From positions 1-64,000 of the forward strand of contig JAAEMR010000251.1 in assembly GCA_024225395.1 (NCBI GenBank): DNA of 64,000 nt, written 5' to 3'. Numbering within the stretch: position 1 is the stretch's first letter; each line of letters opens with the position of its first letter. Below the pieces are notes generated by a model. That model was not told the origin of the DNA. It worked only from the letters and a program-made list of their open reading frames with translations, and searched no databases. Origin of the DNA: Gammaproteobacteria bacterium. GTDB lineage: Bacteria > Pseudomonadota > Gammaproteobacteria > GCA-001735895. The position numbers were made by a program, and so were the translations under genes. Of this stretch, positions 51,984 through 60,577 are shown one piece after another.

Positions 51984-53036
51984 TCAATCAATTTTACTAT
52001 TTATAGATGGATATTTACGGAGATAAGCTCTGATTTGATGATAACTCAAACCCAGGGCATCAGCTGTTTTGCGCTGGTTAAAGCGGTATTGGTCCAGAGC
52101 ACGCTGTAATAGCTCTATCTCATGTTGCTGAATATAAGCTTTAAAGTCATGCGGCAGACTTTCGATGTCACGCTTCTTTACCTCTTCCTGCTTAACTTCC
52201 ACTTCCTGCTCGACAATCGTTTCATCTGCCTGGTGAGTTGAATCATTATGCAACGGTCGAAACGGGGACTCAAAGGGATCAAAATCGATATGGTCAATGG
52301 GTGTATCAATCTGACATCGATAAACCGCTCGTTCAATCACATTTTTTAACTCCCTCAAATTTCCCGGCCAGGCATAGTTCACCAAATGATGCATTGACTC
52401 ATCAGTAAAACCTGGAAAAAAATCACGCTTGAGTTCTTTAATCATTCCAGTGGCAAAAAAATCCGATAGCAACGGAATATCATCTTCTCTAAAACGCAAT
52501 GGAGGCAGGGTTATTACATCAAATGAAAGTCTATCGAGTAAATCAGCCCTGAACTTACCCTGTTCCACCATCAGAGGAAGATCCATATTTGCAGCGCCAA
52601 CAATGCGAACATTAACCGATAAAGTCTCCCTGCCCCCTACCCGTTCAAACTCTCCATATTCAACAACCCTGAGTAATTTTTCCTGCAACCTGAGAGACAT
52701 ATTTGCAATTTCATCCAGGAAAAGTGTTCCACCATCCGCCTGTTCGAACCGCCCAAGGTGACGTTTAGTTGCACCGGTAAAGGAACCTGCTTCATGCCCG
52801 AACAGCTCAGATTCAAGTAATGTTTCAGGCAACGCTGAGCAGTTTAACTTGATAAGCGTGTTATCCCAGTTGGAGGACAGGAAGTGAAGTCTTTCAGCAA
52901 ATAACTCTTTGCCGGTTCCTCGTTCACCAATAATCAATACCGGTTTATTAAGAGAGGCAACCTGAGATATTTGCTCCAGAGCATTGAGGAATGATGCAGA
53001 CTCTCCAATCAGTTTATGGGTTTCATGCTGGGTCAT
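51984..53036 (-). CDS. pspF: PspF-like sigma-54 activator of the phage-shock response
   Basis: 350 residues: an AAA+ sigma-54-interaction domain directly at the N-terminus (no receiver), then a ~45-residue acidic linker and a Fis-type HTH (RKTADALGLSYHQIRAYLRK). Walker A is GERGTGKE, and the Walker B region is GGTLFLDEI. The sigma-54-contacting loop is GSFTGA (84-89) rather than GAFTGA. E. coli PspF has the same receiver-less layout and is inhibited by PspA. It is divergent from the psp operon, whose promoter is of sigma-54 type. Confidence 0.92.
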   Translation of the reverse strand: MTQHETHKLIGESASFLNALEQISQVASLNKPVLIIGERGTGKELFAERLHFLSSNWDNTLIKLNCSALPETLLESELFGHEAGSFTGATKRHLGRFEQADGGTLFLDEIANMSLRLQEKLLRVVEYGEFERVGGRETLSVNVRIVGAANMDLPLMVEQGKFRADLLDRLSFDVITLPPLRFREDDIPLLSDFFATGMIKELKRDFFPGFTDESMHHLVNYAWPGNLRELKNVIERAVYRCQIDTPIDHIDFDPFESPFRPLHNDSTHQADETIVEQEVEVKQEEVKKRDIESLPHDFKAYIQQHEIELLQRALDQYRFNQRKTADALGLSYHQIRAYLRKYPSINSKID

Positions 53037-53163: not shown

Positions 53164-53180
53164 TTGGCACGGAATATGTA
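53164..53180 (+). promoter_or_regulatory. PspF-type sigma-54 promoter of the psp operon
   Basis: TTGGCAC-GGAAT-ATGTA: perfect -24 box. The -12 has GT where GC is usual; from memory, the E. coli pspA promoter shares this feature. The predicted start is near 53190, about 43 bases before the first gene. PspF enhancer sites would lie in 53037-53160. Confidence 0.75.
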
Positions 53181-53232
53181 AAGAGAACAATAAATTATCG
53201 AAATGTAAAATTGAATTTCCAGGAGAAGGCAG

Positions 53233-53619
53233 ATGAAAACCAACAATATCATAAAGCACTTAAAACTAGTTTCAGTGGTAGGCCTTATTATATCTGTTTC
53301 AGTTACTGGAAATGCCCTGGCTGAAGATACTTCAAATAGCCAGATTGAAAAGCAGCAACTTCAAATATTGCAAGAATGGAATAAAAAGGCGCAGGCACGG
53401 TTTAACAGGAAAATGGAGCAAAAACTCAGTAATGAGATACAGGCATTAGCTAACATGCCACCTAAAAAATCTTTTTATGCCAGCCGCCAGTCATTCAATA
53501 CTGATACAGATGCAAAACTGGTCAAAGCAGTTAACAACCGGTCTGGAATCAACACTCAGATATCCACCCCGGTAAAAACCATTAGCAACAACAATGAACA
53601 TTGTCTTATCAACTTATAG
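53233..53619 (+). CDS. Unknown exported protein, first gene of the psp operon
   Basis: 128 residues with a clear Sec signal peptide (hydrophobic core about 12-25, cleavage after NALA at 30). The mature part is about 98 residues, helical and charged in its first half (QQLQILQEWNKKAQARFNRKME), then Ser/Thr/Asn-rich. It has no membrane anchor or lipobox. One cysteine lies near the end (HCLINL). SD AGGAG, seven bases before the ATG. It lies between the sigma-54 promoter and pspA, with the pspA start 11 bases after its stop. I do not recognise the family; a periplasmic stress protein is a guess from context. Confidence 0.8.
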   Translation: MKTNNIIKHLKLVSVVGLIISVSVTGNALAEDTSNSQIEKQQLQILQEWNKKAQARFNRKMEQKLSNEIQALANMPPKKSFYASRQSFNTDTDAKLVKAVNNRSGINTQISTPVKTISNNNEHCLINL

Positions 53620-53629
53620 AGGAATAGTC

Positions 53630-54298
53630 ATGGGAATTTTTAGCCGATTAAACGACATTGTTAACTCCAACATCAATGTCATGCTGGATAAAGCGGAAGA
53701 TCCAGAAAAAATAATACGCCTGGTTATCCAGGAAATGGAAGATACCCTGGTCGAAGTTAGATCCGATGCAGCAAGAACCATTGCCGACAAGAAAAAACTT
53801 CGTCGCAAGATTGACCTGATGGCTCGTGAAGTCACTGAGTGGGAAAGAAAGGCAGAGTTGGCCATTTCAAAAGCCCGCGAAGACCTGGCGCGTGCCGCAC
53901 TGACAGAAAAACATAACCTGGAAAGAGATGCTGAAATACTCGAAAGTGATTTACAGGAACTTGAACAGCACCTGACCAAGCTCAATGAAGATATCGGTCA
54001 GTTACAACAAAAGCTGGATGACGCCAAAAACCGTCATAAAGCCATGGTATTAAAGCATGATACCGTTTCAAGCCGCCTTCGTACTCGCACTAAACTTCAT
54101 GATGACCGAATCAATGATGCTTTAGGTCGGTTTGATGGGATCGAAGAGAAAATCGATCAAATGGAGGGCAAGGTAGATGCTTTTGATATTGGCCGTGATC
54201 GCACACTGCAAGACCAGTTCGCAGAGCTTGAATCAGAAGACGTGATTGATGATGAACTGGCTAAACTAAAGGCTCGTTTAAAAACTAAAAGTGAGTAA
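53630..54298 (+). CDS. pspA: Phage shock protein A
   Basis: 222 residues from the ATG at 53630 (SD AGAGGAA). An open frame starting at 53594 overlaps the previous gene and is unlikely. The N-terminal amphipathic helix (GIFSRLNDIVNSNINVMLDKAEDPEK in parts) is followed by long coiled coils, normal for the PspA/Vipp1 (ESCRT-III-like) family. PspA binds and inhibits PspF, and on membrane stress it assembles on the inner membrane to limit proton leakage. Confidence 0.97.
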   Translation: MGIFSRLNDIVNSNINVMLDKAEDPEKIIRLVIQEMEDTLVEVRSDAARTIADKKKLRRKIDLMAREVTEWERKAELAISKAREDLARAALTEKHNLERDAEILESDLQELEQHLTKLNEDIGQLQQKLDDAKNRHKAMVLKHDTVSSRLRTRTKLHDDRINDALGRFDGIEEKIDQMEGKVDAFDIGRDRTLQDQFAELESEDVIDDELAKLKARLKTKSE

Positions 54299-54371
54299 GA
54301 TCGGATTAAATCATGCTTATTAAATCAAATAATCTATGTATAATTTTATTTTTTAACTCAAAGGAATAATC

Positions 54372-54614
54372 ATGGGTGTATTTGAAATGGTGGTAGCCGT
54401 TGTTGCCATCAGCATAACCGGAGGCGTCATTAGCAAATCCATTAAAGCCAAAATTGAGGCTGAAAAAAGTGCTAACAAAAGTGACAGGAAAATATCTGAA
54501 AAGCGCTTTAATGAAATTGAACAGAGATTGATTGTGCTTGAACAAATTGTCACCAGTGAAGGTTACGAACTAAATCAGCAGTTTAAGAATATTGAAAATG
54601 AAAAAATCAAATAA
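54372..54614 (+). CDS. PspB-like small membrane protein (extra copy)
   Basis: 80 residues: an N-terminal membrane helix (about 3-22) followed by a charged coiled coil (KRFNEIEQRLIVLEQIV). This is the same plan as PspB but with little direct sequence identity. It sits between pspA and the recognisable pspB (SD AAGGAA). It is probably a second PspB-type adaptor that senses or transmits membrane stress. An AT-rich stretch with TATAAT at 54339-54344 lies just upstream and might be an extra promoter. Confidence 0.75.
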   Translation: MGVFEMVVAVVAISITGGVISKSIKAKIEAEKSANKSDRKISEKRFNEIEQRLIVLEQIVTSEGYELNQQFKNIENEKIK

Positions 54615-54628
54615 TAGAGGTAAATATC

Positions 54629-54856
54629 ATGGGTGAGGAACTTTTAGTAATACCAATACTCTTTTTAACAATAGTTGTACCTCTATGGCTAGTTTTACAT
54701 TATGTAGCCAAGTTCAAGTCTGCTAAATCATTATCCAGTTCCGATGAAGAAGCACTTGCAGAGTTATGGCATCAGGCAGATAAATTTGAATCCAGAATTG
54801 AATCACTTGAAACCATTCTGGATGAAGAAGTGCCTGGCTGGAGATCACAATCATGA
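54629..54856 (+). CDS. pspB: Phage shock protein B
   Basis: 75 residues with a membrane helix (about 4-26, ending VPLWLVLHYVAKF) and a C-terminal helix (ALAELWHQADKFESRIESLETILD in parts), the standard PspB pattern. With PspC it senses envelope stress and draws PspA away from PspF. Overlaps pspC by four bases. Confidence 0.93.
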   Translation: MGEELLVIPILFLTIVVPLWLVLHYVAKFKSAKSLSSSDEEALAELWHQADKFESRIESLETILDEEVPGWRSQS

Positions 54857-55257
54857 ACAAAAAATTTACCTACACTTTTGAATATCACCAAAATCTATAT
54901 CGTGATACTGAAAATAAGAAAATTTCAGGTGTTTGCGCTGGGATTGCGGACTATTTTTCCATCAATGTCACGGTCATTCGTATACTGACAGTATTATCCG
55001 CATTGACTTTTACCTTTATTACATTTCTTGCTTACATCGCAGGAACAATTTTCCTAAAGCCAAAACCATTCGATCTGTATGCAGATGAAGAAGATGAGGA
55101 TTACTGGAGACGCTACCGGAAATCTCCAAGAAACACGCTGGCTGAAGCACGTAATAAATTTCGCAAACTTGAACAGAAAATTCGTAAGCTTGAAACCTAC
55201 GTGACCTCAAAGAAGTTCACCCTGGATCGAGAGTTTGAAGAAATGGGCAAACATTAA
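54853..55257 (+). CDS. pspC: Phage shock protein C
   Basis: 134 residues. The PspC domain begins about residue 14 with LYRDTENKKISGVCAGIADYF and has a membrane helix at about 45-68 (LTFTFITFLAYIAGTIF). A charged C-terminal helix (FRKLEQKIRKLETYV) follows. Partner of PspB at the inner membrane. The RND adaptor gene starts 18 bases later. Confidence 0.93.
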   Translation: MNKKFTYTFEYHQNLYRDTENKKISGVCAGIADYFSINVTVIRILTVLSALTFTFITFLAYIAGTIFLKPKPFDLYADEEDEDYWRRYRKSPRNTLAEARNKFRKLEQKIRKLETYVTSKKFTLDREFEEMGKH

Positions 55258-55275
55258 AACAATAGCAACCCTGTT

Positions 55276-56361
55276 ATGAAAATCCTGAGCAGATACCCGT
55301 GGATAATATCTCTTTTCCTCATCCTGTCATTAGCGACATGGCTGGCAACCGGCCTGCTACAGGCAGCTCCGGAAAAAAACCAGCCAAAACCTGCAACCAC
55401 TCCGGTACCTAAAGTAAGAGTACAAAAGATAAGCCCTCAAAAGGTGCATCAATCAATTATTTTGTATGGACGCACTGAACCCAGTAGAAGCACTGTTCTA
55501 CGCGCAGAGCTGAGTGGACGCATCACCGAGATTTACGCCACAAGAGGTCAGAGAATTAAAAAAAATGCACCGGTCATGCGGTTGGACTTAAATGACAGGG
55601 ATAAACAGCTGATCTATGTTGAAGCCAGACTTGCGCAACATAAACTAGAATTCGAAGGTTCAAAATCATTAAGCCTTAAAGGTTACCAGGGAAAAGCCCA
55701 ACTAGCTCAAAGCCAGGCTGACCTGAAAGAAACTGAAGCCAGGATCGCCCAGTTAAAAAAAGAAATTAAAAATACATTACTTCGAGCTCCATTTGACGGA
55801 GTTATTTACGACCGGACAGTAGAACTCGGTGATTACATAACGGTAGGTGAACAACTGGCAGATTTTATTGATTTAAATCCTCTGATAGTTAGAGGAAATG
55901 TAAGCCAGCAAAATATTCAATCTATTTACCTAAAGCAAAAAGCACTGGTTACTTTTGCCGGGAACATTAAAAAAACTGGTAAGGTGCATTACATTTCATC
56001 CATGTCCAACACTCAAACCAATACCTTTCGTATAGAAGTATCGCTGGATAATCCCGATCTTAAAATACTGGCCGGGTTGACGACAGAAATAGAGATACCA
56101 TTGAAACAAATTGATGCCATAAAGATCAGCCCTGCATTATTTTCTCTCGATGAAAATGGTGTTATCGGAATTAAATGGGTCAAACATAACACAGTTCAGT
56201 TCAGCACGATCGATGTTATAAAAACAGAGGCTGACGGAGTGTGGATTAAAGCACTCGACCCTGACATTAAAATTATAACCGTTGGCCAGGCCTTCGTAAG
56301 AAAAGGCGACAAGGTTGATGCCGTTCTTGAACACGATAATATAGCCGACCAGAGCTCTTAA
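55276..56361 (+). CDS. RND efflux periplasmic adaptor (HlyD/MFP family)
   Basis: 361 residues. An N-terminal signal/anchor helix (about 8-28), a lipoyl-like half (LSGRITEIYATRGQRIKKNAPVMRLD in parts), a short helical hairpin (about 110-155), the second half with LLRAPFDGVIYDRTVELGDYI, then beta-barrel and membrane-proximal domains. It links the inner-membrane pump encoded next to an outer-membrane channel that is not encoded here. It has no clear SD and starts 18 bases after pspC, so it is probably read through from the psp promoter. Confidence 0.92.
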   Translation: MKILSRYPWIISLFLILSLATWLATGLLQAAPEKNQPKPATTPVPKVRVQKISPQKVHQSIILYGRTEPSRSTVLRAELSGRITEIYATRGQRIKKNAPVMRLDLNDRDKQLIYVEARLAQHKLEFEGSKSLSLKGYQGKAQLAQSQADLKETEARIAQLKKEIKNTLLRAPFDGVIYDRTVELGDYITVGEQLADFIDLNPLIVRGNVSQQNIQSIYLKQKALVTFAGNIKKTGKVHYISSMSNTQTNTFRIEVSLDNPDLKILAGLTTEIEIPLKQIDAIKISPALFSLDENGVIGIKWVKHNTVQFSTIDVIKTEADGVWIKALDPDIKIITVGQAFVRKGDKVDAVLEHDNIADQSS

Positions 56362-56363
56362 CC

Positions 56364-59300
56364 ATGCATTCAATTATCGATGGGGTGCTATCCAGGTCTC
56401 GTACCATGGTGATGATTTTCATCCTGCTCATAACCTCCGGTCTCATTAGCTACATCAACATTCCCAAAGAGTCAGAGCCCGACATCGACATACCTTATAT
56501 TTATGTTTCCATGTCGCACGATGGGATATCCCCCGAAGATGCTGAACGTATGCTGGTTCGCCCGATGGAGAATCAACTGAAGTCTATCGATGGCATCAAG
56601 GAAATGACTTCACGCTCTTCCGAAGGTCACGCATCGGTTACATTGGAATTTATTGCAGGCTTTGATTCTGACAAAGCGAAGGATGATGTGCAGGATAAAG
56701 TGACCGCTGTAAAAGCTGAGTTACCCGATGACACAGACGAGCCCGTCATCAATCAAATAACTATGGCAGATCAGAATCCGGTTATCACCATTAGTATTTC
56801 CGGAGAATTACCCGAACGTGCATTAGTTCAGCTTGCCAGAGACCTGTCGGACAAACTGGAAGCGTTTACCGAAGTGCTGGAAGTTGAGCTGACCGGAGAC
56901 CGTATCGATCAGCTGGAAATAATTCTGAACCCCCTGGCCATGGAAAGTTATGGCCTGGATCAACAGGATATATTTCAATTTGTAGCACGCAATAACCGCT
57001 TAATTACAGCCGGCACTATGGATACCGGAAAGGGGCGATTTGCGGTCAAGATTCCAGCTGTTTTTGAAAATATAGAAGACATCATGAATCTACCGGTTAA
57101 ATCAAGCGGTGATCTCATTGTTAAATTCAAGGATGTAACTTCTGTTCGTCGAAGTTATAAAGATCCAGGTAGTTTTGCCCGCTTAAACGCTAAAAAAAGT
57201 ATTTCTCTGGAAGTAAAAAAACGCCCTGGTGAAAACAGCATTAGTACCGTTGAAAAAATTAAAAAGCTGATTTCAGCTGAACAGAAAAGCTGGCCGAAAC
57301 ACCTTATTCTTACTTACTCAGCTGACCGCTCGGAAGAAGTCAAAGACATGCTAAACGACCTGCAGAACAACGTCGTTTCAGCCATTGTGCTGGTGGTCAT
57401 TATTATCATTGCTTTCCTGGGCATCAGAACGGCAACACTGGTCGGACTTTCAATTCCCGGATCTTTTTTAAGCGGCCTGTTAATCCTCGCATTACTAGGT
57501 TACACCATCAATATCGTCGTTTTATTTGCACTTATTATGGCGGTAGGCATGCTGGTAGACGGCTCTATCGTGGTGACAGAATATGCCGACCGTGTAATGA
57601 ATGAAGGAGTGGCAGCAAAACAGGCTTTTTCAATGGCTGCCAGACGCATGGCCTGGCCAATTACTGCATCAACAGCAACCACTCTGGCGGCATTTGCCCC
57701 GCTGATTTTCTGGCCCGGCATTATGGGTGAATTCATGAAATACCTGCCCATCACCCTGATAGCAACATTATCCGCTTCTCTATTCATGGCCCTGTTATTT
57801 GTACCGACCCTGGGAGGCATGTTAGGTCGCCCAAGGCAAGTCTCCCGGCAAGCCCGCGAACGACTATTGCAAGTCGATGAAGGTGATATCTATAGCCTTG
57901 ACGGGTTTACCGGTTTTTATGTCCGAATACTTAACATAGCAATGCAACACGCATGGAAAGTCATTATTATCACCCTGCTATTTGCCACCGCCATTTTTAC
58001 CGCCTATAGCTATTCAGGCCTTGGTATGCAATTTTTCCCTGATGTTGAACCCGAGGGTGGAAATATTTATGTTAGAGGTTATGGCGCACTTTCCATTTAT
58101 GAAAAAGACGCATTAATGACCGAGGTTGAGTCCAGGCTGGTAGACATGGAAGAAATCGAAACCCTTTACACCTATACAGGAGGAAGAAACAGGATAGGAC
58201 GTTTTCGCTACAACCTCATCGACTGGCAGAATCGACGTAAAGCAATCGATATCATCGAGGAAATGAATACCCGGGTGTCTGATATAGCCGGCATAGAGAT
58301 TGAAATTGGAAAAGATGAGTCCGGTATCAACATAGGCAAGGATATTGAGATTGAACTAAGTTCAAGATTTCCTGATTTAATGCAATTGACCGCATTGCAG
58401 GTACGCCAGGTCCTAGAGAAAAATCCAAAACTGAAAGATATTGATGACACCCGAAGCAAACCGGGCATAGAATGGCGACTGGAAGTCAACCGGGTAAATG
58501 CTGCACGATTTGATGCCGATGCAGCACTGGTGGGCAACATGGTTCAACTCGTTACCAATGGTTTAAAAATCGGAGAGTATCGCCCGGAAGATGTTGATGA
58601 AGAACTGGATATAAGAATTCGCTTTCCACATAAAAATCGAAGTATCGACAGGCTCGATGAACTGAGAGTTCGTACCGATAATGGATTCGTACCGATCAGT
58701 AATTTTGTAACACGTGTAGCCGTCCCTAAAATCGATACCATTGAACATATTAATTCTCGCCGGGTTTACCAGGTAAAAGCAAATATGGTTGAGGGTGAAC
58801 TTTTAAGCCTGGAATTACCTGAACTAAAAAAGCAGTTGAAAGCTCTCGATACAGATCCCCGGGTTAGTATTGAAATAAAAGGGGAAAATACTGAGCAACA
58901 GGATTCCCAGGAATTTTTACAGAAAGCATTTCTGGTTGCATTGTTCGTGATGGCTATTATTTTAGTGACTCAATTCAACAGCTTTTATCAGGCATTCCTG
59001 ATTTTAAGCGCCGTACTTTTTTCAACCGTTGGCGTATTCCTGGGATTACTCATTTTCCAGAAACCCTTTGGTATAGTTATGTCAGGTATAGGCGTCATAT
59101 CACTGGCGGGTATAATCGTAAATAACAATATTGTTTTGATCGATACTTACAACGTATTACGCCGCAGGGGTATGCAGGCATACGAGGCTATTTTACGCAC
59201 AGGAGCACAACGTTTAAGGCCGGTATTACTGACTACGGTAACCACTATTCTTGGTCTGGCACCCATGGTGATGGAAATGAATATTGACCTGGTAAATCGG

Positions 59301-59471
59301 AATATTGAATTTGGAGGCCCCTCAACACAGTGGTGGTCTCAACTTGCTACGGCAGTTGCAGGAGGACTCGCATTTGCCACATTACTGACGCTAATTCTCA
59401 CACCCTGTATGCTTTCCCTTGCCAACCGAAGACACCAGAAAGCTTTGGAAGACAATAATCAAACTCTTTAA
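56364..59471 (+). CDS. RND efflux pump, inner-membrane permease
   Basis: 1035 residues with the AcrB/HAE1 plan: one N-terminal and five further membrane helices, a large periplasmic loop, and the same again in the second half. The proton-relay region in TM4 is GMLVDGSIVV, with D399 matching AcrB D407 but G400 in place of D408. In TM10 it is VNNNIVLID, with N920 in place of AcrB K940. The substrate is unknown. It starts two bases after the adaptor stop. Confidence 0.93.
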   Translation: MHSIIDGVLSRSRTMVMIFILLITSGLISYINIPKESEPDIDIPYIYVSMSHDGISPEDAERMLVRPMENQLKSIDGIKEMTSRSSEGHASVTLEFIAGFDSDKAKDDVQDKVTAVKAELPDDTDEPVINQITMADQNPVITISISGELPERALVQLARDLSDKLEAFTEVLEVELTGDRIDQLEIILNPLAMESYGLDQQDIFQFVARNNRLITAGTMDTGKGRFAVKIPAVFENIEDIMNLPVKSSGDLIVKFKDVTSVRRSYKDPGSFARLNAKKSISLEVKKRPGENSISTVEKIKKLISAEQKSWPKHLILTYSADRSEEVKDMLNDLQNNVVSAIVLVVIIIIAFLGIRTATLVGLSIPGSFLSGLLILALLGYTINIVVLFALIMAVGMLVDGSIVVTEYADRVMNEGVAAKQAFSMAARRMAWPITASTATTLAAFAPLIFWPGIMGEFMKYLPITLIATLSASLFMALLFVPTLGGMLGRPRQVSRQARERLLQVDEGDIYSLDGFTGFYVRILNIAMQHAWKVIIITLLFATAIFTAYSYSGLGMQFFPDVEPEGGNIYVRGYGALSIYEKDALMTEVESRLVDMEEIETLYTYTGGRNRIGRFRYNLIDWQNRRKAIDIIEEMNTRVSDIAGIEIEIGKDESGINIGKDIEIELSSRFPDLMQLTALQVRQVLEKNPKLKDIDDTRSKPGIEWRLEVNRVNAARFDADAALVGNMVQLVTNGLKIGEYRPEDVDEELDIRIRFPHKNRSIDRLDELRVRTDNGFVPISNFVTRVAVPKIDTIEHINSRRVYQVKANMVEGELLSLELPELKKQLKALDTDPRVSIEIKGENTEQQDSQEFLQKAFLVALFVMAIILVTQFNSFYQAFLILSAVLFSTVGVFLGLLIFQKPFGIVMSGIGVISLAGIIVNNNIVLIDTYNVLRRRGMQAYEAILRTGAQRLRPVLLTTVTTILGLAPMVMEMNIDLVNRNIEFGGPSTQWWSQLATAVAGGLAFATLLTLILTPCMLSLANRRHQKALEDNNQTL

Positions 59472-59486
59472 CACTAAGGAAATAAA

Positions 59487-59696
59487 ATGTCCGCTAGAAT
59501 ATTTATACCCCTGATTCTAATTTTTACATTAACCGGTTGTACTCCTGATTTTATAGATAACAATAGTTACAACTTCACGTCGACACTGGGTCAGGAATTA
59601 ATCGATTTAAAAAAGGCACTGGATGAAGGCGCAATTGATGAGGAACAATATGATGAACTATATGAAGGGCTAAAAGAATCCAGGTTCGGTCACTAA
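59487..59696 (+). CDS. Small lipoprotein with SHOCT-like C-terminus
   Basis: 69 residues. The signal peptide ends in a lipobox LTGC (C18), so the protein should be lipid-anchored. The C-terminal part (LIDLKKALDEGAIDEEQYDELYEGL in parts) matches the short SHOCT helix pair. The residue after Cys is Thr, so the outer membrane is the likely location under the Lol rule. Good SD (AAGGAA), 15 bases after the pump gene. It is probably the last gene of the psp-RND operon. Confidence 0.8.
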   Translation: MSARIFIPLILIFTLTGCTPDFIDNNSYNFTSTLGQELIDLKKALDEGAIDEEQYDELYEGLKESRFGH

Positions 59697-59788: not shown

Positions 59789-60577
59789 ATGGGTTTTTTA
59801 ACCGGAAAAAAAATACTAATCGCTGGTATCGCCAGTAATCGTTCTATTGCCTACGGTATTGCCAAAGCCATGTTCCGCGAAGGTGCAGAACTTGCATTCA
59901 GTTATCCTAACGAAAGGTTTAAACCCCGGGTTGAAAAATTTGCAGAAGAATTTGAATCTCAAATTGTGCTGCCGTGTGACGTCACAATTGACGATGATAT
60001 TACTAATTTATTTAGCGAATTAAATAAAACATGGGACTCACTTGATGCTCTGGTTCATTCTATTGCTTTTGCACCACGCGAAGCCCTGGTAGGAGACTAT
60101 CTGGAAAACCTCGACAGAGAAGCCTTCAGACTGGCTCATGATATTAGCTCTTACAGCCTGTCTGCAATGGCCAAAGCAGCACGCCCCATGATGCAGGGAA
60201 CCAATGGATCTATTATTACGATGAGTTACCTGGGCGCTGAAAAAGCTCTACCTAATTACAATGTTATGGGTGTCGCCAAGGCATCATTAGAAGCCAGTGT
60301 AAGATACCTGGCTTCAGCACTGGGGCCTGAAGGAATTCGGGTAAACTCTATTTCAGCCGGCCCGATAAAAACTTTGGCAGCATCGGGTATCGGTAGTTTC
60401 AAAAAGATTCTGGATGAAGTCGAGCACAACGCACCATTGCGTAGAAATGTCACCATTGAAGATGTCGGTAACACCGGTGCATTTTTATGCTCTGACATGG
60501 CTGCCGGTATCACCGGAGAAAATATCTATGTAGACTCCGGTTATAATATCATGAGCATGGGAGTTCTTGAGTCATAA
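59789..60577 (+). CDS. fabI: Enoyl-[acyl-carrier-protein] reductase (NADH)
   Basis: 262 residues, the typical FabI. N-terminal nucleotide-binding [13 protein letters not shown], catalytic Y147 and Y157 with K164 ([19 protein letters not shown] in parts), and the substrate loop [11 protein letters not shown]. It performs the last step of each fatty acid elongation round. It has its own upstream gap (92 bases) and ends at a strong terminator. Confidence 0.98.

Follow-up and report, generated by a model that had tools for sequence, protein, structure and literature searches.

A psp operon that probably includes an RND adaptor and efflux pump in two orders of Gammaproteobacteria

RESULTS AND DISCUSSION

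Organization of the locus

The window, by which we mean the whole 64,000-nt stretch of DNA analysed (contig JAAEMR010000251.1 of assembly GCA_024225395.1), comes from a gammaproteobacterial genome of 4.45 Mb in 265 contigs, which encodes nine full-length RND genes. In it, a divergent pspF gene and a psp-type sigma-54 site are followed by a one-strand run of eight genes, which end shortly before fabI:

51984-53036, minus strand: pspF, divergent, encoding a sigma-54 activator (bEBP); TIGR02974, 508.7 bits (cut-off 443.6)
53164-53180, plus strand: psp-type sigma-54 promoter, TTGGCACGGAATATGTA; site conserved in sequence and position
53233-53619, plus strand: Exp, small secreted protein with a signal peptide, first gene of the operon; position kept in relatives, paralogue known
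53630-54298, plus strand: pspA; TIGR02977, 287.1 bits (cut-off 243.0)
54372-54614, plus strand: PspBL, membrane protein with one pass and a coiled coil like that of the PspC tail; C-terminus of TIGR02978 matched weakly
54629-54856, plus strand: pspB; TIGR02976, 82.9 bits (cut-off 51.7), and PF06667, 91.4 bits
54853-55257, plus strand: pspC; TIGR02978, 133.1 bits (cut-off 104)
55276-56361, plus strand: RND periplasmic adaptor (MFP); TIGR01730, 145.3 bits (cut-off 94.9), PF13437 and PF16576
56364-59471, plus strand: RND pump, VDG/VNNN subclade; PF00873, 547.9 bits (cut-off 28)
59487-59696, plus strand: LP, small lipoprotein with a SHOCT-like helix; lipobox LTGC
59789-60577: fabI, the next gene after LP

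The initial annotation had described eight genes on a single strand with short gaps, and each was found at its annotated position. The gaps are 10 nt (Exp to pspA), 73 nt (pspA to PspBL), 14 nt (PspBL to pspB), 18 nt (pspC to the adaptor), 2 nt (adaptor to pump), 15 nt (pump to LP) and 92 nt (LP to fabI), and pspB and pspC overlap by 4 nt; the 73- and 18-nt gaps are those that had been reported. The absence of a terminator between pspC and the adaptor was likewise borne out by a consensus scan of that junction, which returned neither terminator-like nor promoter-like matches on the plus strand, bearing in mind that sigma-70 consensus scans overlook many genuine promoters. The locus has the hallmarks of the psp operon class, namely a divergent pspF of the equivalog family, an upstream sigma-54 site, and pspA, pspB and pspC in order. 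As in tripartite RND systems, the pump and the adaptor are encoded together, both above their model cut-offs; the operon itself has no outer-membrane channel gene, and genes for TolC-type OEP proteins lie at other loci of the genome.

The promoter has the form TGGCACG-N5-TGT, with TGT in the −12 box where the consensus has TGC. Its distance from pspF is 128 nt both in the window and in three congeners (G001, G006 and G007), and 127-153 nt in G008, a Sedimenticola bin and two relatives of the latter. The motif TTGGCACGNNNNNTGTW occurs three times in the 4.45 Mb genome, and its backward control does not occur. The PspF-type sigma-54 promoter that had been proposed ahead of the operon is thus supported by a site that is rare in the genome and conserved at a nearly constant distance from pspF.

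Properties of the encoded proteins

The annotated identities of the psp core proteins, the adaptor and the pump were upheld by family models above cut-off, but two labels, "PspB-like" and "SHOCT-like", were not. PspBL, which is located between pspA and pspB in every genome with the psp-RND cassette, has a weak match of its C-terminal end to the C-terminus of the PspC model TIGR02978 (23.2 bits), and a profile comparison with PspB gave a probability of 62% over 21 columns only. We therefore rejected a plain PspB paralogue and prefer the label PspC-tail-like; the likeness of PspBL to the C-terminal coiled coil of PspC appears to be at least as great as its likeness to PspB. The SHOCT match of LP scored 17.2 bits against a Pfam cut-off of 27. 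For PspA, we place the start at 53630 (MGIFSR...) and not at the ATG at 53594; the TIGR02977 model begins at residue 13 of the longer reading frame.

Using AcrB numbering, the pump keeps D407 and R971, whilst D408 is replaced by G and K940 by N, so that it departs from the AcrB-type (HAE-1) proton relay of D407, D408, K940 and R971. The resulting VDG/VNNN set is common to nearly all of the pump's clade, whose proton relay differs from that of AcrB; given this altered relay, the substrate may perhaps differ from AcrB-type drugs as well. The best relatives of solved structure, MdtB and MexK, are only distant, with MdtB scoring highest at 245.5 bits. When compared with G001, every gene of the operon is under purifying selection (dN 0.02-0.31, dS 0.6-1.6), with Exp, the adaptor and LP changing fastest.

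Conservation of the psp-RND linkage

The initial annotation had proposed a survey of pspC-RND adjacency in relatives. Ours combined a scan of genome contigs with the pump, searches with pspC and reading of the fetched loci, and the arrangement recurred in nine other genomes. The ten genomes with the order psp-adaptor-RND belong to two orders, and the distance from pspC to the adaptor in each is as follows (negative values are overlaps):

window: 18 nt
G001 (L029): 15 nt
G006 (L030): 13 nt
G008 (L135): -4 nt
G010 (L136): -4 nt
G418 (L055): 71 nt
G739 (L264): 76 nt
G750 (L261): 30 nt
G751 (L266): 30 nt
G741 (L265): 27 nt, on a contig that stops after the adaptor

The 4-nt overlap of the two genes in G008 and G010 suggests that pspC and the adaptor are translationally coupled in these genomes. 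LP follows the pump gene in L029, L030, L135 and L136. In Sedimenticola relatives, two genes for DUF697/dynamin-like GTPases follow the RND gene (L264:103-2878 and L267:458-3233), the first of which overlaps the RND gene by 4 nt in L264.

Accidental adjacency of psp and RND genes is unlikely, because the genome has nine full-length RND genes in 4.45 Mb and the order is conserved in nine further genomes. The window does belong to a 265-contig assembly, and several of the surveyed genomes are metagenome bins, so one might suspect that chance, or misassembly of a bin, had joined unrelated genes. The order is nevertheless identical in ten genomes that were assembled separately, in which adaptor and pump show protein identities of 42-94%. 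Such an artefact is therefore extremely improbable, and in practice the relatives refute it.

Outside these genomes, the pump is not a regular companion of psp. Of 370 evenly drawn Gammaproteobacteria, 25 reached the set threshold for PspC, and none of the 16 such loci from outside the cassette genomes whose pspC surroundings were read had an adaptor or RND gene directly after pspC. Exp and PspBL are present, and no pump follows pspC, at three psp loci of the Sedimenticola order (G746, G620 and G747); the pump is therefore not obligatory, and the five extra genes (Exp, PspBL, adaptor, pump and LP) are not always inherited together.

These pump-less loci bear on the possibility that the pump has another export task, for example of a lipid or a stress product, and that the psp proteins are co-made to shield the membrane from an abundant RND pump. 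The Psp response is triggered by membrane-protein overload, which would suit such a role, as would the unusual VDG and VNNN relay set, with a substrate that may differ from AcrB-type drugs. However, most genomes examined have psp operons without the pump, which argues that psp is independent of the pump and predates it, and we consider a protective role of this kind very unlikely.

The congener G007 retains pspF, pspA, pspB, pspC and fabI (PspA and FabI are 90% and 93% identical to those of the window) and lacks Exp, PspBL, the adaptor, the pump and LP (L153 and L268). Its pspF-pspA gap is only 331 nt, and the 232-nt gap between pspA and pspB contains an apparent decayed remnant of PspBL. A stand-alone pump with 52% identity, belonging to the wider clade, is also present in G007. 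As judged from this locus, which is divided between two contigs with the break inside pspC, G007 would represent a natural loss of the five extra genes.

In the window, G001, G006, G008 and G010, fabI adjoins the 3′ side of the psp-RND operon, and the block upstream of fabI is conserved. Since that block is also kept in G007, where the pump is absent, fabI is probably transcribed from a promoter of its own, and LP would be the last gene of the operon.

Origin of the linked pump

In a tree built from ~70 RND sequences, the pump of the window and those of eight psp-linked relatives form a single clade with a support of 1.0, together with L067, a Thiolapillus locus whose contig starts within the RND gene. 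This clade branches within a set of stand-alone pumps from Alteromonadales, Ferrimonas and Vibrio, in whose genomes psp is at a separate locus. The simplest history is that the adaptor-pump pair was captured once, and was subsequently inherited with the psp operon, given that the linked pumps have a single origin among stand-alone pumps.

We considered whether the stand-alone orthologues are also controlled by PspF. No consistent sigma-54 site was found before 42 stand-alone adaptor genes, where the scores were mostly at the level of shuffled sequence, and we therefore rejected this idea. It follows that PspF control of such a pump would arise only through linkage.

Comparison with known psp loci and pumps

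The window shares with E. coli pspABCDE the orthologues of PspF, PspA, PspB and PspC, a divergent pspF and a sigma-54 promoter of the same type. It differs in having no pspD, pspE or ycjXF after pspC, in carrying Exp before pspA and PspBL within the operon, and in the adaptor, pump and LP that follow pspC. Membrane-associated genes after pspC are likewise a feature of psp-ycjXF clusters (DUF463/DUF697). In the stand-alone-pump genomes, the position behind pspC is occupied by ycjX/ycjF-like genes, and not by the pump, in most of the loci examined from Alteromonadales, Ferrimonas, Aeromonas and Photobacterium.

The passages found in two surveys of psp neighbourhoods from 2022 and 2024 (PMC9239133 and PMC11237479) make no mention of a comparable RND efflux pump linked to psp. 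The initial claim that no standard psp operon has such a content stands for this pump, but Vibrio has a different RND operon beside pspC, across a gap with terminator-like hairpins. Six of 20 Vibrionaceae loci (L231, L234, L236, L238, L241 and L245) have two adaptors and an RND gene after pspC on the same strand, which is the layout of V. cholerae vexIJK (VC1673-1675). The psp genes of V. cholerae are VC1676-1678 (PMC9201469). The Vibrio pump is ~23% identical to that of the window and falls in a separate clade, and it is preceded by a gap of 146-159 nt from pspC to the first adaptor. RNA folds placed a hairpin followed by a T-run in this gap, clearly so in L238, L241 and L245 only; a mechanical terminator scan found no plus-strand terminator in L238 and scored the L231 hairpin on the minus strand only. 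With one adaptor in the window and two in VexIJK, a non-orthologous pump and a different gap structure, we ruled out that the two arrangements are the same. No link of vexIJK to Psp was found in the accessible parts of the V. cholerae vexIJK literature searched. That two unrelated RND systems lie behind pspC supports a functional link, although only that of the window's lineage looks like one operon.

The Vibrio layout also touches on a reading in which our pump is transcribed chiefly from its own promoter inside pspC, the psp linkage then being an inherited neighbourhood of little regulatory meaning. Orthologues that form stand-alone operons in many genomes would fit, as would an unrelated RND operon that starts 146-159 nt after pspC, past terminator-like hairpins. 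Yet there is little space for a separate promoter where pspC and the adaptor are only 18 nt apart, as in the window, or overlap by 4 nt, as in two relatives. In addition, no plus-strand promoter match occurs near 55276, and the gene order has been retained in two bacterial orders. On balance, we regard a predominantly separate transcription of the pump as unlikely.

A proposed model for joint repair and efflux

The reading that we favour, and which we think is probably correct, is that the locus is a psp operon with a once-captured RND adaptor-pump pair, acting as a PspF-controlled stress-plus-efflux operon. Inner-membrane damage would free PspF from PspA, and the freed PspF would activate RNA polymerase-sigma-54 at 53164-53180 to give one mRNA that extends from the sigma-54 site through LP. 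PspA, PspB, PspC and PspBL, as the proteins that mend the membrane, would be co-made with the secreted helper Exp and with the pump, which could rid the cell of the hydrophobic or membrane-damaging compound behind the stress by way of a TolC-type outer-membrane channel encoded elsewhere. Membrane damage would thus probably turn on repair and export jointly in one gammaproteobacterial group. MdtABC and AcrD are RND pumps under the envelope-stress regulators BaeSR and CpxR, and the shared principle would be that RND efflux increases at the command of a regulator of envelope stress. BaeSR and CpxR, however, govern two-component regulons with the pumps in separate operons, whereas the pump of the window is inside the PspF/sigma-54 operon itself.

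It has long been asked what Psp does beyond the binding of membranes by PspA. If, as is probable, the pump answers to the regulator of membrane damage, this naturally occurring operon, which is kept in two orders, would allow one to test directly whether cells also meet Psp-inducing damage by exporting the damaging compound.

The Exp family and a second psp-type sigma-54 site

The Exp protein carries a signal peptide, and a single tryptophan is invariant across its aligned homologues; a Pfam search with Exp and its homologues gave no match above cut-off. The genome of the window has a second, near-identical psp-type sigma-54 site (G000:C10:65137, minus strand; L289). About 54 nt beyond this site begins a gene paralogous to Exp, and the gene after it encodes a lipoprotein of 267 aa that matches the Toastrack domain of PspC weakly, scoring below the cut-off. 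The same unit of sigma-54 site, Exp paralogue and Toastrack-like lipoprotein is present in G001 with identical spacing, and G001 has just two Exp-family matches, both with a psp-type sigma-54 site. A second Exp-like gene is also present in G006 and G008, where no recognisable sigma-54 site was found before it.

Because the paralogue sits under a second near-identical site in both the window's genome and its congener, Exp looks like a PspF-regulon family. Tentatively, PspF may run an extended regulon, composed of the psp operon with its built-in RND pump and the distant unit of Exp paralogue and Toastrack-like lipoprotein; Exp would be a new PspF-controlled secreted family, and the response to damage would be envelope-wide and reach into the periplasm. 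Exp thereby offers a candidate periplasmic arm of the Psp response, of which we found no description in the literature searched.

Small signal-peptide proteins are encoded between the sigma-54 site and pspA both in the cassette genomes and in pump-less psp operons (L260, L262 and L263), and candidate proteins in the Exp position are also found in L141, L143, L147 and L152.
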